This document shows positions 9,155 to 30,823 of a DNA stretch of 47,468 nt, piece after piece. How positions within the stretch are numbered: the stretch's first letter is position 1; every line of letters starts with the position of its first letter. The notes beneath the pieces were generated by a model, which saw only the letters and a program-made list of their open reading frames with translations, had not been told where the DNA came from and searched no databases. The translations under genes and the position numbers were made by a program. The stretch comes from a bacterium (lineage in GTDB: Bacteria > Cyanobacteriota > Vampirovibrionia > Gastranaerophilales > Gastranaerophilaceae): NCBI GenBank assembly GCA_017536545.1, contig JAFXHF010000004.1, forward strand, positions 1 through 47,468. Direction: 5' to 3'.

Positions 9155-10606
9155 CTATGCGTTAAATACGTTAAATGATTTTTCAACGTTTTTCTTAATG
9201 ATACCTTTTACAGCATCATATTCAGTAGATAATGCACTGTGTTCAGATTCAAGTTTATTCAATTGAAGGTCAAATTGTTTATCTTGGCTTTCAATTTTAT
9301 CCATTGCGTTTTGGTAAACTTGTTCAGCGATTACCATAGCTGATGAGTCTTCTTTTTCTGCGATTGATTCATCAGAATCTAAGCTTGTACCAACAAATGA
9401 TTTTTCAACACTTGAGTAGTAAGATAATTGTAATTTACCAGCTTTTAATTGTTTTACAAACCAATCAGTTTCTTTTAAATTAGTTTCATCTTGAACAGTT
9501 GTATAACCTTTAGCTCTCATTTCATTGAAAATATTTTTGTAGTAATTAACCATTCCAGAATCATATTTTAAAGTTTGAGTTGTTGCTGAAACTGTATTGT
9601 TATAATAGGCTTCAGTGATTGCTGTTGCATAGTCAAATAATTCTCTTTGAGCAGTTGTTGTACCTTCATAGTTCAAAGCTTTTTTCGCTTCATAGATATC
9701 ATATTGAATACCGCCTTCAGATACACCATTGATATCTAGATAGTTTCTTGGACTTTCACTAACGAGGTTATCATCTGGATCAGCATATAAAGCTTTGGTG
9801 TCAACAAGCTCACCATCTAAATTTGTATAAGTGAATAAACCTGTTTCAGTATTATAATCAACATCTGTGACTTCGTGCCAATCAGTATTACCATCAGCAT
9901 CAGAATCACCGTGGAAGTAACCAACTTCAATCGTAGATGTTGTAATACCATTTACAGTTGTTGAATATTCTCTAGCTTCTAATAAATGTCTTTGTCTGTA
10001 GTAGCCATTGCTATCTTTGTATAAAGGTGTTGTACCATGTTCATCTGTAGCATAAGCTGTATCATAAGTTACATAACCATCAAATGAATCTGAACTAAAT
10101 GCTGTATAATCAAATCCTAAAATATGTTGGCTATCATAATCATTGATACTTTTACCAACAGATACTAAATATCTGTCCCAAGCATCATGCACTGCAGCTT
10201 CAGATTTTTCATGTTTAGTAACATCGATATCTGCTTGAGTGTAACCCATATCTCTTAAGAATCTATTAAAATCACCATTTGTATTTTTGAAAGCTGTTGC
10301 AATTGCTGAAGAAACTAAAACTTTACCAGTATTATCTGTAACTAAGTATTGTTTACCAGCTGCAACTGAATTGAAAGAAGTTAATTGATTGTATGATAAA
10401 TCAGCATAAGTAGCTTCAGAACCATTATAACCAGTTAAAACTTGATATTTAGTCTTAGCTAGAGCATCTAAATAAGCATCGTTAATCTGTTCTGAATTGT
10501 CAGAAAGACGTTGCTTAGAATAAGCTAATGACTGCTGTTCCATCTCGTTATTAGATAGACGAGCAGTAATGCTTAATAATCTAGCTTGTGATGCTGCCAT
10601 ACCCAT
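9155..10606 (-). CDS. Lineage-type hypothetical protein with hook-like terminal helices
   Basis: 483 residues, no signal peptide. The N-terminus (MGMAASQARLLSITARLS, then a Gln/Asn-rich helix) and the C-terminus (a coiled coil from about 430 ending VEKSFNVFNA) are helical. The middle is an acidic, Tyr/Thr/Asp-rich region that looks beta-rich. Paired terminal helices around a variable middle resemble flagellin/hook-type or other helical-filament proteins, but no flagellar genes are nearby. I associate the N-terminal sequence with a recurrent Gastranaerophilales family of unknown function. AAGGA lies about 13 nt before the ATG, so the start could be the second Met. An inverted repeat (CCGTAA/TTACGG, 10641-10658) sits in its leader. 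Confidence 0.8.
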   Translation of the reverse strand: MGMAASQARLLSITARLSNNEMEQQSLAYSKQRLSDNSEQINDAYLDALAKTKYQVLTGYNGSEATYADLSYNQLTSFNSVAAGKQYLVTDNTGKVLVSSAIATAFKNTNGDFNRFLRDMGYTQADIDVTKHEKSEAAVHDAWDRYLVSVGKSINDYDSQHILGFDYTAFSSDSFDGYVTYDTAYATDEHGTTPLYKDSNGYYRQRHLLEAREYSTTVNGITTSTIEVGYFHGDSDADGNTDWHEVTDVDYNTETGLFTYTNLDGELVDTKALYADPDDNLVSESPRNYLDINGVSEGGIQYDIYEAKKALNYEGTTTAQRELFDYATAITEAYYNNTVSATTQTLKYDSGMVNYYKNIFNEMRAKGYTTVQDETNLKETDWFVKQLKAGKLQLSYYSSVEKSFVGTSLDSDESIAEKEDSSAMVIAEQVYQNAMDKIESQDKQFDLQLNKLESEHSALSTEYDAVKGIIKKNVEKSFNVFNA

Positions 10607-10658: not shown

Positions 10659-10712
10659 CATTGTTTAAAGAAAACTTTAGGATTTAAGACATAATGTTAC
10701 AAAGTTGTTACA

Positions 10713-11735
10713 TTACTTCCCATTTAAAATATAATTAAATTCTGCAAGCGGAAACTTAGGGAACCGCCTATTCTTCTTCAAAATTTCAAAATATCTGAAA
10801 TACTTAGACTTTATGCTTTTAATAGAAATTTTACGCAAATAAACTTTTTCGACATTTCGCCACAAATAGAAACATATATAATCTTTAAATTCCGAATTTT
10901 TCCAATGATTTATGTACGTCAAGTTAGCTGGAGTTTGCTCAAGATCAGTAATCCTATTCCAAGGTTTATCAACGATGTAATGATATATTCCACCATTTTT
11001 CATATCAAAATCTGTAACACAACGAGTCGAATAACATTGGTTATTCCATCTTGGGTGAAGAGGTTTTATTTGAGAACCTAAAACTTCACTTATAATAATT
11101 TGGTCAGCAAACTGTGTTTTTTGATATTTTTCTAAATCGCTATGTAAAGTATCAATAATTTTTTGCGAAAGTTTTTGCTCTCGCCATTTTTTAGAATCGA
11201 TTAAAATCATTCCCGAGTTATAAAAGCCATATTGCAAATTAAAACCAGAAAAACGTTTCAGCCACAAATCTTCAACAAAATCATTTACCATGCCAGTAGA
11301 TTGTTGCCCTAAATCTATATTGTACAATTCAGATAAATCACCAGTGGCTAAAGTATCCCCATCTAAATAAATAACCTTATCTACATCAATAATTTCAGGG
11401 ATAACAACTCTAGCAATTGCAATTGGAGTCAAATGCTTATATAAATTTACCCCTTTTGTAATTCTATCAGTATCTACTGGAACAAACTCAACATTATTAT
11501 CAAATTTTTCAATGTGATTTTTCATTAAAGTTTTACTATATCTAGTTAGACCTGTTTCAACAATATAAAAATTGTATCTAGTATCAGAGTTACTATTTTT
11601 TATTATAGAATCAATTGAAATCATTGTTGGGATAACATAATTATTATCAATAGTAAACGCAACATTCACTGGTTCTTTTGCAAATGCTAAATTTGAAATA
11701 AATAACAAGAATAAAGTTAAAACTAATTTTTTCAC
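10713..11735 (-). CDS. Family 8 glycosyltransferase with a signal peptide
   Basis: 340 residues. Residues 1-19 form a clear Sec signal peptide (KK, hydrophobic core, SNLAFA cleavage box). The GT8 catalytic domain starts right after it: VNVAFTIDNNYVIPT, and the metal-binding DxD motif as YLDGDTLATGDL near residue 125. FYNSGMILID and ADQIIISEVL are further GT8 signatures. GT8 enzymes normally use cytoplasmic UDP-sugars, so export is unexpected; the N-terminus predicts the enzyme in the periplasm or on the outer face. The start is GTG with GGAG upstream. It is the last gene of a four-gene operon, 2 nt after the MFS gene. Acceptor unknown. Confidence 0.85.
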   Translation of the reverse strand: MKKLVLTLFLLFISNLAFAKEPVNVAFTIDNNYVIPTMISIDSIIKNSNSDTRYNFYIVETGLTRYSKTLMKNHIEKFDNNVEFVPVDTDRITKGVNLYKHLTPIAIARVVIPEIIDVDKVIYLDGDTLATGDLSELYNIDLGQQSTGMVNDFVEDLWLKRFSGFNLQYGFYNSGMILIDSKKWREQKLSQKIIDTLHSDLEKYQKTQFADQIIISEVLGSQIKPLHPRWNNQCYSTRCVTDFDMKNGGIYHYIVDKPWNRITDLEQTPANLTYINHWKNSEFKDYICFYLWRNVEKVYLRKISIKSIKSKYFRYFEILKKNRRFPKFPLAEFNYILNGK

Positions 11736-11737
11736 AA

Positions 11738-12958
11738 CTACTCCTTAACCTTATAAGCATTTACCATAGATAACGAACCAAACACTACAAAACACGCAAA
11801 AGCAATCATAAAAAATGCTTTCAATCCAATTGGGCCGATAAACAATTTAGACGACATTAAAATAATAGCAGCTAATGTCCTTGATACAAAATTATTCACA
11901 GACATCAAACTTCCACGATAATCTATCGATACAAATTTATGTAATCTACTCACATGTAATATAGTAAATGATAATTGCACACCTATAATCAAACAAATTA
12001 CAAACAATAAAGCAAACGTTAATTTCACATTGGTCACAGAAATCATTTTAAACACACAGAAAAATGCTACAAAATATAGAGCATACAATGGAATAATCAT
12101 TTTTCTAATATTTAAACTGCGAAGGAATTTCCCAGCAACAACACCAGATAACGCTCTTATTCCGTGATTTATGAAAGCAACTACACCAAATAATGCTACA
12201 GGAAACATTGCATGTTGCATCAATGGTTGAAAACTTACAGCAAACAATATTGATAAAGAAGACAATAATCCCGAGTAAAAAATATAATGACGCATTTCGG
12301 TTTTTGAATAAATATTTTTTACACTATTTTTAAAATCTTCAATTTTATTTTTAAAATCTTTTACCAACGACAAATCATTCAAAGACTTCTGAGCTTCGGA
12401 TTTGATATCAGGAAGCGTTATGACAAGTAAAATACTTATAGAAATTAAAACTGTCTCAGTTATCAAAATAAATTCTGAGCCATAATGTTGATATAAAAAA
12501 GTACCAATAATAGCTGCAACTGCGGTACCAAAAGCCAAATAAAAATTCAAATATCCCCAATATTTGACCATATTTTTATTTTCTAAATAATCATATAAAT
12601 ATCCCGAATTTGCGTTATCCATCATTACTTTTGATATCGCAAACAGGATTTCACCTGCCAAAATCACGTAATAACCTTTAAAAAATAACCATAAAACTGT
12701 TATAAATAAAAAGATTAAAAACGAAATTATTAATAACTTTTTTCGAGAAATATTATCTGATAGATACCCAACAGGAATTTCTGATAGTATTGACACAAGA
12801 TAGAAAATACCTTGGAAAAAGAATAAATCTTGAACCGATAGATTGTTTTCATTATAGAAAAATAAGATTACAGGTTGAAGCAATAAGACTGCCCTTAAAA
12901 ATAATGCGATATTAAATTTACAAATTTGAAAATCTAAATTTTTAAGATTAATTCCCAT
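11738..12958 (-). CDS. MFS transporter
   Basis: 406 residues with about 12 hydrophobic spans. The segment EIPVGYLSDNISRKKLLI (about residues 61-78) is the loop 2-3 motif of the major facilitator superfamily (G-x3-D-x2-(S/G)RR/K). The central loop is basic and charged (about 190-225). AGGGGG precedes the ATG. It is 8 nt after a small membrane-protein gene and 2 nt before the exported GT8 gene. The substrate is not readable. Context suggests moving a sugar, glycan precursor or product for the surrounding operon, which is inference only. Confidence 0.85.
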   Translation of the reverse strand: MGINLKNLDFQICKFNIALFLRAVLLLQPVILFFYNENNLSVQDLFFFQGIFYLVSILSEIPVGYLSDNISRKKLLIISFLIFLFITVLWLFFKGYYVILAGEILFAISKVMMDNANSGYLYDYLENKNMVKYWGYLNFYLAFGTAVAAIIGTFLYQHYGSEFILITETVLISISILLVITLPDIKSEAQKSLNDLSLVKDFKNKIEDFKNSVKNIYSKTEMRHYIFYSGLLSSLSILFAVSFQPLMQHAMFPVALFGVVAFINHGIRALSGVVAGKFLRSLNIRKMIIPLYALYFVAFFCVFKMISVTNVKLTFALLFVICLIIGVQLSFTILHVSRLHKFVSIDYRGSLMSVNNFVSRTLAAIILMSSKLFIGPIGLKAFFMIAFACFVVFGSLSMVNAYKVKE

Positions 12959-12966
12959 TATGCCCC

Positions 12967-13392
12967 CTATACCACAGCCCTATACCAAAGACACATAATA
13001 GGTATAATTACCGCTAAAATCGCTGAAAACACCAACAAATATAACCTAATATCTTTCTTTCTATATATCCAATATGCGATAAACAATGGGATTAAAAATA
13101 GTACCGCAACAAACTGTAATTTCACTGCCTCAATAAAAATATTCATAATAGTTACTAGCATGATAAGGGTTAAAATCCCTACAATATTATTGAATTTCGC
13201 AAAATCTTTCACAAAAAAAGCTCTAAGTGAAAGTACAAAAACAACTAATGCAATAATAGGTAAGAACAAATTACAAATATCAACAAACACCATTAACGGT
13301 AAAGCTAAAACAGAAAAACCCCAAAAAGGAGCATAAGAAAATAACAAGACTAAAATTAAGCATAACAAACTCAATATAATCTTCTTTTTCAA
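12967..13392 (-). CDS. Small polytopic membrane protein
   Basis: 141 residues, mostly hydrophobic, with about four to five predicted spans and short basic loops (RKKDIR). I do not recognise the family. The start is TTG with GGAGGAGAG immediately upstream, a strong ribosome site. It lies 27 bp after the toroid-type enzyme gene and 8 bp before the MFS gene, so it belongs to the same operon. It may be a membrane partner of the exported GT8 or of the transporter. Confidence 0.75.
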   Translation of the reverse strand: MKKKIILSLLCLILVLLFSYAPFWGFSVLALPLMVFVDICNLFLPIIALVVFVLSLRAFFVKDFAKFNNIVGILTLIMLVTIMNIFIEAVKLQFVAVLFLIPLFIAYWIYRKKDIRLYLLVFSAILAVIIPIMCLWYRAVV

Positions 13393-13419
13393 ATTCTCTC
13401 CTCCACCTCTTTTACATAA

Positions 13420-15291
13420 TTATATAACACAGATATTGTTTTCTGCAAAATACAATCTAAAATAAAAACAAGCAACGTGTTGTATAGAATCAACCCTAAC
13501 CCACTGTCTTGTAGCCTTAAATCTTATCGCACCAAGCGATTTCTCAGGATTCTTATGAGCATAAGTATTTTCAGCAACATTCACTAAAACAAGTTGAGAT
13601 TTTGCAGTTTTACGACAAGCATCCAATAATGTTTGAGCTAATTCATTATCACCCAAATTTTTTGCTAAATAGTGAGCAGCTATCAAACCCTCTGACCTTG
13701 AACCATCAGGGTAATAATGATCCCCATAGTTGTAATAATAAGCCCCTTCATAATCAATATATGGAGAATCATCTTTTTGGTAGATTTTATCAATCATTAT
13801 TTTTGCATCATTCAATACAAAATTTATATAATTATCTTTTCTGAAATCTTCACGCTTAGTCCATTCTTCGATAGCCTGCATTAACCACGCATCAGATGGC
13901 AAAGCAGTGAACAAATCAGAATAAATATTAGGTCTTTCATCAACTATCCAATCTAAAGCAATTCGACTTTTTTCAAGAACTTCTTCTAGTAAATCTTCAT
14001 CCCCTTCAAAATGATTTGCAAATAACGCTAAACCTAATAAGGCTTCTCCAGGGTAATAGAATGAAAAAGTTTCACGACGTTCCTCATCGGTCATCTCAAT
14101 AAGAGGTTTACCATCCTGAAAACTTGGATGTATATAGTACCCCAACATTTCCCCTGTTTTATAAATCCTTGATAAAAGATGTCTTGTGTATTTTTTAATA
14201 AATTCATCATAGGATTTATCACCAGTTTCCATACGATATCTCATCATAGCGATAAGAATCATACCTGTGCCACCAAGTTTAGCTTTTTTATTATAGAAAA
14301 CATACGCTGCAGATTTTCCGTCAACTTGATGTTCTTTAGTAATTGTTGTTATAAAGTCCAAACCTTTTTTTGCAGATTCTAAGTATTTTTTATCTTTGGT
14401 TAATTGATAAGCCCTAATTAAAGTGATAATTCCACCACAATGGCGTAAATCATTGTAATATAAATCATCTTCCGCTCTATTTGGATGCTCATGATCTACA
14501 TAATTATCTTCTTTTGCATCGTAATAATATAAATATTGACCATTACTTTTTTGATATTTTACAATCCAATCAGCACCAGCTAAAGCCTTATTTTTAATTT
14601 CATCTTGCGAATATTCCCACAAAATATTCCCTCGATATAACGGAAGAATTTCATCGCCGAAAGTCACAAAACATCTACTTTTCACAAGGAAACATTCATA
14701 TTTTGATTTTTTTAGAATATCAATTCTTTCTGAAATTTTATTTGTAATATTTTTAATCGAAGATTTTCTCAAAATCGTATTTAGGGCAGATTTCAAATCC
14801 ATCTGACTATTCGACCAAGCTTCAGATGGGGTATAAATATATGTTTTTCCTTCGTAATTAAGTTTTATACCAGTAATCCCAGGTTCAAAACGTCTTTGTT
14901 CAAATGATGCAGATTTAATTTCTTCTAACCTTACAGGAAACTGTTCTGTAATATATTCAAGCATAATTCTACAAATTTTAGGATTTGCAATATCAAAATC
15001 AGAATAAGACTTATTATTTTTGATTTGAGAAATATCTCGGTTGATGGTTTCTTCTAATGTCTGTCTGCAAGCCCCCCACCTAATTGGCTTAAGACCTTCT
15101 TGAAAAAGAGTTATATAAACATACGTTAGTCCATTATCATACTTGATTATTTCATCCAAAGACAAACCCTCTAGTGATACATTACTTCCAGAAATGAAGG
15201 CTTCACGAATTTTACAGATCAATGCATTAATCCCAGAAAAATTTTTCTGGAAAAACTCTCTTTCAACAATATTTTGTTTAGAATAATCCAT
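13420..15291 (-). CDS. Two-domain protein with a C-terminal alpha/alpha-toroid (six-hairpin) domain
   Basis: 623 residues, no signal peptide. The N-terminal ~200 residues end in GITGIKLNYEGKTYIYTP and faintly recall AMMECR1-like domains. From about 225 onward there are repeated helical hairpins of the six-hairpin glycosidase/epimerase type: ALAGADWIVKYQKSNGQYLYYY, a YLESAKKGLDFI-type repeat, and TALPSDAWLMQAIEEWT. The start at the ATG at 15291 was chosen because AAAAGGA precedes it at 8 nt, while the Met ten codons upstream has none. It heads the operon with a membrane protein, MFS transporter and exported GT8. An activity on uronic acids or glycans is plausible, but no catalytic residues can be named. 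Confidence 0.7.
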   Translation of the reverse strand: MDYSKQNIVEREFFQKNFSGINALICKIREAFISGSNVSLEGLSLDEIIKYDNGLTYVYITLFQEGLKPIRWGACRQTLEETINRDISQIKNNKSYSDFDIANPKICRIMLEYITEQFPVRLEEIKSASFEQRRFEPGITGIKLNYEGKTYIYTPSEAWSNSQMDLKSALNTILRKSSIKNITNKISERIDILKKSKYECFLVKSRCFVTFGDEILPLYRGNILWEYSQDEIKNKALAGADWIVKYQKSNGQYLYYYDAKEDNYVDHEHPNRAEDDLYYNDLRHCGGIITLIRAYQLTKDKKYLESAKKGLDFITTITKEHQVDGKSAAYVFYNKKAKLGGTGMILIAMMRYRMETGDKSYDEFIKKYTRHLLSRIYKTGEMLGYYIHPSFQDGKPLIEMTDEERRETFSFYYPGEALLGLALFANHFEGDEDLLEEVLEKSRIALDWIVDERPNIYSDLFTALPSDAWLMQAIEEWTKREDFRKDNYINFVLNDAKIMIDKIYQKDDSPYIDYEGAYYYNYGDHYYPDGSRSEGLIAAHYLAKNLGDNELAQTLLDACRKTAKSQLVLVNVAENTYAHKNPEKSLGAIRFKATRQWVRVDSIQHVACFYFRLYFAENNICVI

Positions 15292-15430
15292 GCATAAATC
15301 CTTTTTACAATATTCTAACATTTGAGATGTAAATTACCCCCATCTTTTTGGTTGATTTTAATTATTAAAAAACGTAACGATTTTGCCACAACCCAAACAA
15401 TATGATACTTTGTAGATGAAAGGATAGGTT

Positions 15431-27598: not shown

Positions 27599-27720
27599 TT
27601 TTTACTCCCTTCACCTTATATACAAGAAAATTTTACCCCGCTCAAAATATTCAGTCAAGGCAATTGAACTTTTTGCAAAATAATGTTAAAATAGATATAT
27701 ATAAATTATGAGGATTGGTT

Positions 27721-28425
27721 ATGATTAAGACTAAAAAGCCTGCATTCACGCTATCAGAAGCTTTAATTACACTAAGTGTTATTGGTATTCTTGGAGTACT
27801 CGTTTTACCAGGCTTGATAAAAGATACGACAAACAGAGCTAATATTGCTTTGCTACAAAGTACAGTTTCTCAACTAAATGACGCTGTCTTAGCTGAATTA
27901 GTAAAAACAAATGTTACTAACATTGAAGATACTGCGATTTACAAAACTCCAGACAAGTTCTTACAAAGAACTTTTGACGTTGCAGAAGTTTGTACCGCAG
28001 CTCCTCCAAACTCTTGTTATGCCAACACTACAACAGATTATAAAACTGCAAACGGTGGCACAACAAGCTTGGCATATTCTAGAAAAGCAGTTCTGTTAAC
28101 TAACGGAGTTGTAATTGATTTACTTACTACAAATACAACATCAACAGCTCCAGGACACATGCCTGTTAGTATTGACTTAAACGGACCAAAAGGACCAAAT
28201 ATTTTGGGAGTAGATAGACATCTACCTTGCCTTGCAAAGACTTCAGACCCAACATCAGGACGTCAAGTTGGTACAATAAGTGGGTGTATTAGAACCGCTG
28301 CAGGTTCAACTGCAACAGCAAATAACACTCTACTTTCAAGATGCAAGAGTGGAAATACTGAAGTTTGTTACTATTTACTTGAACAGTCTGGATTCGATCC
28401 AAATTACTTGAATAAAACTTATTAA
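27721..28425 (+). CDS. Type II/IV pseudopilin-like protein 1
   Basis: 234 residues with a prepilin N-terminus: basic leader, then KPA|FTLSEALITLSVIGILGVLVLPGL, with the conserved Glu at +5 and Ala, not Gly, at -1. The helix is followed by a globular domain. A loop D-L-N-G-x3-P-N-x2-G-x-D is shared with the two other pseudopilins here, and a C-terminal Cys pair (RCKSGNTEVCYYLL) is also shared. The start was taken at the ATG at 27721 because AGGA lies upstream at good spacing. It is followed 10 bp later by a second pseudopilin. Likely part of a type II secretion or type IV pilus machine. Confidence 0.9.
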   Translation: MIKTKKPAFTLSEALITLSVIGILGVLVLPGLIKDTTNRANIALLQSTVSQLNDAVLAELVKTNVTNIEDTAIYKTPDKFLQRTFDVAEVCTAAPPNSCYANTTTDYKTANGGTTSLAYSRKAVLLTNGVVIDLLTTNTTSTAPGHMPVSIDLNGPKGPNILGVDRHLPCLAKTSDPTSGRQVGTISGCIRTAAGSTATANNTLLSRCKSGNTEVCYYLLEQSGFDPNYLNKTY

Positions 28426-28435
28426 GGAGATAAAA

Positions 28436-29092
28436 ATGCTAAATAAAAAAGCGTTTACTTTATCAGAATTATTAATAGCACTTGCAATTGTTGGTGCAAT
28501 TGCGGCATTATCAATTCCTGCGGTTGTTGAAGATATGAACCGTAGAATCTTAGCTAGTCAATTGAAAAATGTATCCTTATCAATTCAACAACTAGCAGGT
28601 GAACAATTAGTAAAAAATCGAACTAAAAGATTAAAATATACCGATTTTGCAACCCCTGCAACATTATTGGGAGCTTCTAATTTTGAGATAGCAGATAACT
28701 GTACAACCAAATCAAATTGTGTTGCTAGTACATACTCAAGAATAAATGGAGAAAATGCAACTTTCCCAGCAAACTACGTAACAAGAAAACTAAAAAATGG
28801 TGTAACTATAGCATATAATCTTAGTACAAATACATCTATTACTGGCGATCCTGACGACAAACCTTTTGGGATTTTCTATGTAGACCTAAATGGTGTTGAT
28901 CACCCTAATATACTAGGCCGTGACCTGTTTGCCTTTAGAATTTCTGAAAAAGGAAGAATTTTTGATGGTACAGGAAACAATGCTCAAAATGACACAAACT
29001 TAAAAAATTGGTGCGTCGGACAGGCTTCCAGTGGGTATTACACAACTTGTTACACATTAGTTGAACGAAATAATTGGAAAATTACATACTAA
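28436..29092 (+). CDS. Type II/IV pseudopilin-like protein 2
   Basis: 218 residues: short basic leader MLNKK, then A|FTLSELLIALAIVGAIAALS with Glu at +5. It has the same D-L-N-G-x3-P-N-x2-G-x-D loop and a C-terminal Cys pair (WCVGQ...TTCYTLV) plus an internal NCTTKSNC. AAGGAG precedes the ATG. It is cotranscribed with the preceding gene and ends at a terminator. It would need a prepilin peptidase encoded elsewhere. Confidence 0.9.
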   Translation: MLNKKAFTLSELLIALAIVGAIAALSIPAVVEDMNRRILASQLKNVSLSIQQLAGEQLVKNRTKRLKYTDFATPATLLGASNFEIADNCTTKSNCVASTYSRINGENATFPANYVTRKLKNGVTIAYNLSTNTSITGDPDDKPFGIFYVDLNGVDHPNILGRDLFAFRISEKGRIFDGTGNNAQNDTNLKNWCVGQASSGYYTTCYTLVERNNWKITY

Positions 29093-30190: not shown

Positions 30191-30823
30191 ATGCGTAAAT
30201 TATTTGCATTCACTTTATCTGAAGTTATGATTACAATGACTATTGTTGGCGTTGTCGCAGCAATGACTATTCCAACTCTACACTATCAGAGAGTTAAAAA
30301 AGAATATACAGCCAAATTAAAAAACTTTTATAGCAGAATGGAAAACTCTATTCTTGATATGGAAATGGACAAAGGTTCATTTAGAGACATGAGACTTCCA
30401 ACTGCAAACCGTCCGACTGGTGATTACAACTGGTACATGGAAAATATTGACCCATACATGGGCCATAATTATGTAAATGAAGGTACTAAAACTGTTTATT
30501 ATAAAGATGGTTCTAGCCTTAGATTTACTTGTGGTGCTGGCTGTGGATGTTTAGATGTATCTTATGATGTTAACGGAGACAAAGCTCCTAACCAAACAGG
30601 ATATGATAGACAAACCTTCCTATATTGCTTTAGCGATGCAAACAGAAATACGTACTTCGGGAATAAAGACGTATTCTTTGGTACATATGGTGCTAGCCAC
30701 ACCGCAGCGGGTACAACTCGGGCAAAAATGATTACACAATGTAAAGACTCACCAAGTTATTGCACAAGATTATTACAAAATGACCAATGGGAATTCAAGG
30801 GAGATTATCCATTTAAGTTCTAA
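30191..30823 (+). CDS. Type II/IV pseudopilin-like protein 3
   Basis: 210 residues: leader MRKLFA, then FTLSEVMITMTIVGVVAAMTI with Glu at +5. It carries the related loop D-V-N-G-x3-P-N-x2-G-x-D and a C-terminal QCKDSPSYCTRLLQNDQWEF matching the Cys-pair signature of the other two. An additional CGAGCGC cluster is unique to it. GAGGA lies about 13 nt before the ATG. Monocistronic with a strong terminator. Confidence 0.9.
   Translation: MRKLFAFTLSEVMITMTIVGVVAAMTIPTLHYQRVKKEYTAKLKNFYSRMENSILDMEMDKGSFRDMRLPTANRPTGDYNWYMENIDPYMGHNYVNEGTKTVYYKDGSSLRFTCGAGCGCLDVSYDVNGDKAPNQTGYDRQTFLYCFSDANRNTYFGNKDVFFGTYGASHTAAGTTRAKMITQCKDSPSYCTRLLQNDQWEFKGDYPFKF

Follow-up and report, generated by a model that had tools for sequence, protein, structure and literature searches.

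A GT8 glycosyltransferase with an export signal and its companion MFS transporter in Gastranaerophilales: a possible route for nucleotide sugars out of the cytoplasm

How does a bacterial glycosyltransferase that probably works outside the cytoplasm obtain its sugar donor? The question is raised by a contig of 47,468 nucleotides (JAFXHF010000004.1 of assembly GCA_017536545.1, here called the window) from a member of the Gastranaerophilaceae, where a GT8-family glycosyltransferase with an apparent export signal is encoded beside a transporter of the major facilitator superfamily (MFS), a small membrane protein that we call TM4, and a toroid-type protein (Table 1). The prevailing view is that extracytoplasmic glycosylation in bacteria needs lipid-linked donors because nucleotide sugars stay inside the cell. 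A mobile pair of one transporter family and an exported glycosyltransferase of the nucleotide-sugar type would be a direct and cheap test of this rule and, if the reading given below is true, a simple two-gene route for placing Leloir glycosyltransferases in the periplasm. A previous sequence-only reading had noticed the exported GT8 within a unit of four genes. That observation is real; the toroid gene is to be dropped from the unit and the MFS family is to be made central. Members of this family and GT8s with N-terminal export segments share their occurrence and their evolution; GT8s of these genomes that are not exported lack such an MFS partner.

The window GT8 is very probably exported. 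Its N-terminus consists of MKK, a hydrophobic core of 16 residues and AFA|KEP, and the GT8 domain begins at residue 23. Signal peptides and anchors were judged by a rule-based script that considers the charge of the n-region, the core and the A-x-A site, and by these rules the window protein has a complete Sec signal, with positive n-region, hydrophobic core and A-x-A site. The earlier claim of a Sec signal peptide directly before the catalytic domain was therefore borne out, and the signal is predicted to be cleavable. Merged searches gave 30 distinct genomes with a member of the MFS family, 10 of a close type (48–90% identical to the window) and 20 of a distant type (about 26–35%). An A-x-A-type site lies immediately before the domain in 8 of the 10 close-group GT8s, the window copy included and L086 and L087 excepted, and this makes it unlikely that the segment is kept as a cytoplasm-facing anchor. 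All 15 distant-group GT8s examined have cores of 18–26 residues and are probable signal anchors; an A-x-A-type site is absent in 13 of them, and the charges on either side of the core point to an outside domain in 10 and are balanced in 2. The signal peptide and the gut habitat might also suit a secreted effector that acts on host or competitor cells. This is very improbable, as the distant-group homologues are probably anchored, the GT8 is co-inherited with a membrane transporter, and no secretion-system gene is prominent among the recurrent neighbours listed.

The enzyme itself retains nucleotide-binding residues of a GT8. The window protein matches PF01501 with an E value of 8e-40 and 137.4 bits (gathering score 24.3), and the DxD motif is intact, as had been claimed: D125 and D127 are invariant in 15 of 15 and in 23 of 23 aligned rows, and N173, H252 and K257-P258-W259 are likewise invariant across all 23 exported rows. 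The ratio of nonsynonymous to synonymous substitution rates (dN/dS) is 0.18 for the GT8 when the window genome (G000) is compared with G011. In an AlphaFold2 model with a mean predicted local distance difference test (pLDDT) score of 84.4, the nearest fold is LgtC (1g9r; Z 27.7, root-mean-square deviation [rmsd] 2.8, 255 aligned residues), followed by WbbM (Z 27.5, rmsd 2.7, 262 aligned), LARGE1 (25.6, 2.8, 250), GlyE and UGGT; XXYLT1 is among the Foldseek matches. The nearest folds of the model are thus those of enzymes that use uridine diphosphate (UDP) sugars, including LARGE1, UGGT and XXYLT1 of the endoplasmic reticulum (ER) and Golgi lumen; several of the matched enzymes work in the lumen with UDP-sugars. 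The exported GT8s may have one origin or two. The full tree favours two (0% of bootstraps with one group), yet this is not robust, as a reduced set gives one group under the LG model and a p-AU (approximately unbiased test) of 0.38 for a single clade under a mixture model.

The MFS family with which these enzymes are associated is sharply bounded. The window MFS matches PF07690 (E 3e-26, 92.8 bits); with the family profile, intact members score at least 329 bits and a broken copy 80 and 435 bits, and across seven genomes the best MFS outside the family reaches 23.5 bits. A search of the 288 family genomes with the window MFS sequence at E 1e-30 detected a member in 18; the profile finds it in 11 of 46 genus genomes, and it occurs in 8 of 339 phylum genomes, all 8 from the Gastranaerophilales family of the window. 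It was also found at 22 loci of genome_contigs, where one record alone is labelled as another lineage (uncultured Acinetobacter). In the genomes searched, the MFS family is restricted to this Gastranaerophilales family of gut bacteria. The relatives with the module are metagenome-assembled genomes of Candidatus Gastranaerophilales from gut and rumen, or are labelled only as uncultured bacteria or Cyanobacteria, and several of the host animals are herbivores.

An exported GT8 adjoins the MFS in 26 of the 30 MFS genomes, and in one pair (G119) both genes are broken. Close-type cassettes are co-directional, with gaps between TM4, MFS and GT8 of −20 to +9 nt, and the distant-type MFS and GT8 genes mostly run in opposite directions. 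As a control, we considered the GT8 open reading frames (ORFs) collected from the genus, 83 in 46 genomes; 37 of the 46 had matches at E 0.001, a threshold at which weaker GT8s may be missed. The N-terminal hydrophobicity of these 83 is bimodal, with 17 at or above 1.95 and 66 at or below 0.89. Of the 17 with hydrophobic N-termini, 13 are encoded no more than 4 kb from the MFS. The remaining four belong to G024 (two) and to a 5.6-kb contig of G006 (two), which repeats the C75 copies of that genome. Only one of the 66 low-hydrophobicity GT8s is near the MFS, and it is a 129-residue 3′ fragment of a broken exported copy. The same 11 of the 46 genomes carry both the MFS and exported GT8s, and the remaining 35 carry neither (Fisher p 7e-11, kinship ignored). 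The two proteins also change together: the distance matrices of 20 MFS/GT8 pairs correlate with r 0.92 (none of 5000 permutations as high), and the correlation persists within the close group (r 0.60; 1 of 5000) and the distant group (r 0.88; 0 of 5000). In G119 (L099/L129), disruption has hit the MFS and the exported GT8 alike, which looks like loss of the pair as a unit.

These results support a tie of the exported GT8 to the MFS and, in the close group, also to TM4. TM4 has no match to any known family; its homologues lie 5′ of the MFS in 8 of the 10 close-group genomes, the window's included, as two split ORFs in G009, and TM4 is the third gene of the close-group cassette. A small protein in L087 and L088 was considered as a further homologue, and its homology is unsupported. 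The flanks of close-type cassettes differ, except in the pairs G000/G011 and G026/G009. The module is not a chance arrangement, because the N-terminal segment, the MFS partner and TM4 recur at unrelated chromosomal sites and the genes are under purifying selection (dN/dS 0.05–0.21 for all genes of the window genome against G011). We tentatively regard TM4-MFS-GT8 as an accessory, horizontally mobile module of Gastranaerophilales, and this, with a role in envelope glycosylation, forms part of our best explanation.

The toroid gene does not belong to this module. All four ORFs lie on the minus strand with spacings of 27, 8 and 2 nt, as the sequence-only reading described, but they do not make a unit of four: of the genes expected to co-occur elsewhere, TM4, MFS and GT8 do and the toroid does not. 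Strong toroid matches occur in 86 of 288 family genomes (89 with any match), and the toroid adjoins a member of the MFS family in only 2 of the 30 MFS genomes, the window genome and G011. At 29 toroid loci besides the window, surveyed with short flanks of which some were ended by contig ends, none of TM4, MFS and GT8 was seen; the neighbour encoded at 9155–10606 in the window stands next to the toroid in 8 of these 29, and a GGDEF gene on its other side in 7. In congeners with an empty site (L033–L037, L040, L043 and L044), the toroid lies between the same neighbours without the cassette. In L040, the toroid stop codon is followed by ATGTAACAACTTTGTAACA, a stretch of 19 bases that in the window overlaps the stop codon of the GT8 gene. 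Thus, TM4-MFS-GT8 entered between the end of the toroid gene and the leader of the gene downstream. The toroid is a widespread single gene of the Gastranaerophilales family, behind which the cassette arrived in two genomes, and its spread, the empty sites and its rare adjacency to the MFS rule it out as a part of the unit.

The MFS is not always paired with a GT8. L111 has none; upstream of its MFS, at a distance of 27 nt, lies the gene of a GT2 protein (PF00535; 3504–4403, plus strand) whose residues 8–26 form a transmembrane segment, an N-terminal anchor ahead of the domain. At L139 (G018:C95; 436–2658, minus strand), the second MFS copy of G018 is a 740-residue protein in which the MFS is fused to a PF13524 glycosyltransferase, and an extra hydrophobic segment at 399–417, by hydropathy an apparent 13th transmembrane segment, would place the transferase outside. 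The constant parts are the MFS and an apparently outside glycosyltransferase, despite the change of glycosyltransferase family. Proteins resembling methylthioadenosine/S-adenosylhomocysteine (MTA/SAH) nucleosidases, with N-terminal signals, lie beside the G184 MFS and 2.4 kb from the G186 MFS. Such genes lie at L098:9004–9807 and L096:3622–4389 (both minus strand); their products belong to the PF01048 family, score over the NCBIfam cut-off and have signal-like N-termini, and the L098 gene shares 17 nt with the MFS gene and stands where the GT8 would be.

This exchange of partners bears on the possibility that the MFS flips an acceptor glycolipid or a lipid-linked sugar on which the exported GT8 then acts, with the donor arriving otherwise or lipid-linked. 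MFS lipid transporters such as LtaA are known (PMC8866510), and the window MFS would resemble LtaA-type glycolipid flippases in being an MFS protein that takes part in envelope glycan synthesis. Known extracytoplasmic glycosylation uses a polytopic GT-C enzyme, a polyprenyl-phosphate-linked donor and a flippase, which in the pentofuranose type is a MATE protein (PMC11127046). We consider a flipped acceptor rather unlikely, as the close-group cassettes contain neither a GT2-type polyprenyl-phosphate-sugar synthase nor a GT-C, the GT8 retains its nucleotide-binding residues, and the pairing of different glycosyltransferase families with the same MFS would need to be accounted for by a shared acceptor. 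LtaA is not among the 50 fold matches listed for the MFS model, which has no bearing on the relation to LtaA.

In the distant group, the genes next to the module hint at a sugar. A short-chain dehydrogenase/reductase (SDR) adjoins the module in 10 of the 20 distant-type genomes, and its best structural relatives are entries (E 1e-61 and 2e-59) of the Bacillus cereus UDP-glucuronate 4-epimerase (PMC11519531). The L094 SDR keeps in alignment Ser127, Tyr149, Lys153, Thr178 and Arg185 of that enzyme, of which Arg185 binds the carboxylate of UDP-galacturonate (PMC12338863). By best match and by active-site residues, the distant-group SDR is a homologue of UDP-glucuronate 4-epimerase. At E 1e-60, the SDR is matched in all 6 distant-type genomes of the genus, in none of the 5 close-type genomes and in 2 of the 35 others, and in L120 the SDR gene follows two successive genes for exported GT8s in line, with a gap of 2 nt. 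A cytoplasmic enzyme of nucleoside diphosphate (NDP) sugars that serves a glycosyltransferase on the outside would imply export of the NDP-sugar. A UDP-glucose dehydrogenase gene lies close by in G018 and G038. This enzyme was considered as a tracker of the module and does not follow it cleanly, being present in 5 of 6 distant-type genus genomes (one partial; G016 without), 2 of 5 close-type and 11 of 35 others.

In 7 of the 20 distant-type genomes, a GH105-like protein adjoins the module and is membrane-anchored by sequence in the two examined, and a PL10 pectate lyase with a signal-like N-terminus is encoded near the module of G006. A retaining GT8 that used UDP-galacturonate would make alpha-galacturonic acid linkages, the kind that GH105 and PL10 enzymes cleave or trim. 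The adjoining epimerase homologue, GH105 and the one PL10 indicate that the sugar of the distant group is probably galacturonic acid. The hydrolases, along with the exported nucleosidase-like proteins of G184 and G186 and the several herbivore hosts, would also fit a system of degradation and salvage, in which exported enzymes cut pectin-like polymers, the MFS imports sugars or nucleosides and the GT8 has a side activity in remodelling. This is unlikely given that the epimerase homologue, whose gene is in line with the GT8 genes of L120, would be a partner in biosynthesis, the close-group cassette has no hydrolases, and the constant pair is MFS and glycosyltransferase, not MFS and hydrolase.

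The AlphaFold2 model of the window MFS (pLDDT 87.2) has an MFS fold, with Z scores of 33–38 to MFS transporters; the best are SLC19A2/A3 and SLC37A4 (Z 37–38, rmsd 2.8–3.4, 359–375 aligned residues), with many MFS proteins close behind. K110 and R268 are invariant and lie inside predicted helices, which would be compatible with an anionic substrate. The window encodes LpxB and LpxI, and the Gastranaerophilales lineage has been inferred to be Gram-negative (PMC3787301), so a periplasm is present. We propose that the GT8 would be released into this periplasm in the close group, by its cleavable signal, and tethered by its signal anchor to the outside of the inner membrane in the distant group, where it would transfer sugar from a UDP-sugar to an acceptor of the envelope. 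The MFS would carry this nucleotide sugar out of the cytoplasm, probably in exchange for a nucleotide or phosphate, and an accessory subunit would be provided by TM4. The module might thus be the bacterial counterpart of a Golgi nucleotide-sugar transporter that feeds a luminal type II glycosyltransferase. Supply of the donor is the most likely role of the MFS and the best-supported one, as judged from association, from which we also infer the direction and substrate of transport, the sugar transfer, the acceptor and the role of TM4. As a whole, export of a nucleotide sugar by the MFS for an extracytoplasmic Leloir glycosyltransferase, within a mobile module for envelope glycosylation, falls in our judgement a little short of an even chance. 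It is possible, and rather doubtful, that this is the first bacterial nucleotide-sugar export, with a dedicated MFS feeding GT8, GT2 and GT-B fusion enzymes outside, analogous to the Golgi and with a pectin-like branch based on UDP-galacturonate.

Several observations weigh against nucleotide-sugar export by the MFS. Four MFS genomes (G024, G067, G184 and L111) have no adjoining exported GT8; the exported GT8s of G024 are on another contig, and in G184 the GT8 is replaced by an exported MTA/SAH nucleosidase-like protein. Three of the 15 distant-group anchors have flanking charges that speak for the reverse orientation. The folds matched by the MFS model (SLC19, SLC37A4, VMAT2, FLVCR) do not discriminate substrate, so that the fold comparison was set aside as a guide to it. 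In the window genome, there is no SDR epimerase at E 1e-60 and no match to UDP-glucose dehydrogenase; the argument about the donor therefore does not extend to the window, where the donor would be a sugar other than galacturonic acid. All 46 genus genomes encode a UshA-like 5′-nucleotidase domain (PF02872), which could hydrolyse free UDP-sugars in the periplasm, and lack of a periplasmic UDP-sugar hydrolase is ruled out as support. Finally, in the window GT8 and in G011, the C-terminal GT8 motif HxxGxxKPW is one residue shorter and its Gly is missing. Together with the unexpectedness of nucleotide sugars in the periplasm, this could mean that the GT8 fold is repurposed, binding glycans or nucleotides outside without sugar transfer and linked to the MFS for another reason. 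Such repurposing is quite unlikely in view of the invariance of DxD, N173, H252 and KPW in the 23 exported copies and of the purifying selection on the GT8.

The proposed export of a nucleotide sugar can be compared with known systems. Three-component systems (Gtr, and the pentofuranose type with GT136) likewise glycosylate outside the cytoplasmic membrane with a small set of genes and a transporter, and in them an SDR epimerase can set the sugar (PMC11127046). The present module differs in having an MFS and an exported GT-A enzyme (GT8), with no GT-C in the cassette. No polyprenyl-phosphate-sugar synthase lies within the close-group cassettes; the rest of the genome was not searched for one. 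GAUTs, LARGE1 and XXYLT1 of the Golgi and ER lumen resemble the window enzyme in that an N-terminal membrane segment precedes their GT8-type catalytic domain, and in working on the non-cytosolic side, as the window enzyme probably does; GAUTs use UDP-galacturonate, and most Golgi glycosyltransferases are predicted to be type II or to have multiple transmembrane segments (PMC6646851). The module differs from these in being bacterial, in its MFS transporter and in its low sequence identity. Eukaryotic nucleotide-sugar transporters are SLC35 proteins of the drug/metabolite transporter (DMT) superfamily. The closest solved sequences and folds to the window GT8 are LgtC, WbbM and the lipopolysaccharide GT8 galactosyltransferases, which are not known to carry a signal peptide and work on the cytoplasmic side. 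Our search of the open literature, with subscription journals mostly outside its scope, brought up neither an exporter of nucleotide sugars in bacteria nor an exported GT8 paired with an MFS, and no system of this kind from Gastranaerophilales.

Table 1. Features of the module and its insertion site in the window
Feature	Position	Strand	Remarks
GT8 glycosyltransferase, very probably exported	10713-11735	-	GTG start; PF01501; signal residues 1-19, domain from about residue 23
Signal-peptide coding stretch MKKLVLTLFLLFISNLAFA, predicted cleavable	11679-11735	-	predicted site AFA/KE at residue 19
MFS transporter, glycosyltransferase-associated family	11738-12958	-	PF07690; family profile; AlphaFold2 model
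TM4, small polytopic membrane protein	12967-13392	-	TTG start; homologues 5′ of MFS in close group
Accessory cassette TM4-MFS-GT8	10712-13419	-	between toroid stop codon and 9155-10606 leader; empty-site congeners
Toroid-type protein, PF06662-like C-terminus	13420-15291	-	host gene upstream of insertion; not a conserved member

Other features of the window and its relatives can be noted briefly. The toroid gene has a second possible in-frame ATG at 15321, and its product has a partial match (E 3e-7) to the C-terminus of D-glucuronyl C5-epimerase (PF06662) and no signal peptide. The product of 9155–10606 (minus strand) has no confident Pfam or NCBIfam match, and its start, MGMAASQARLLSITARLSNNE, is common to several neighbours in related genomes. 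In a scan of the window for promoters and terminators, promoter-like sites were not commoner than in shuffled sequences. A small membrane protein of the DMT_6 family (DUF486) is encoded near the MFS at L085:9244–9603 (plus strand), L103:3078–3283 (plus) and L097:9330–9671 (minus), which may be chance. Elsewhere in the window, at 27715–29092 and 30191–30823 (plus strand), three prepilin-like ORFs carry N-terminal FTLSE motifs.

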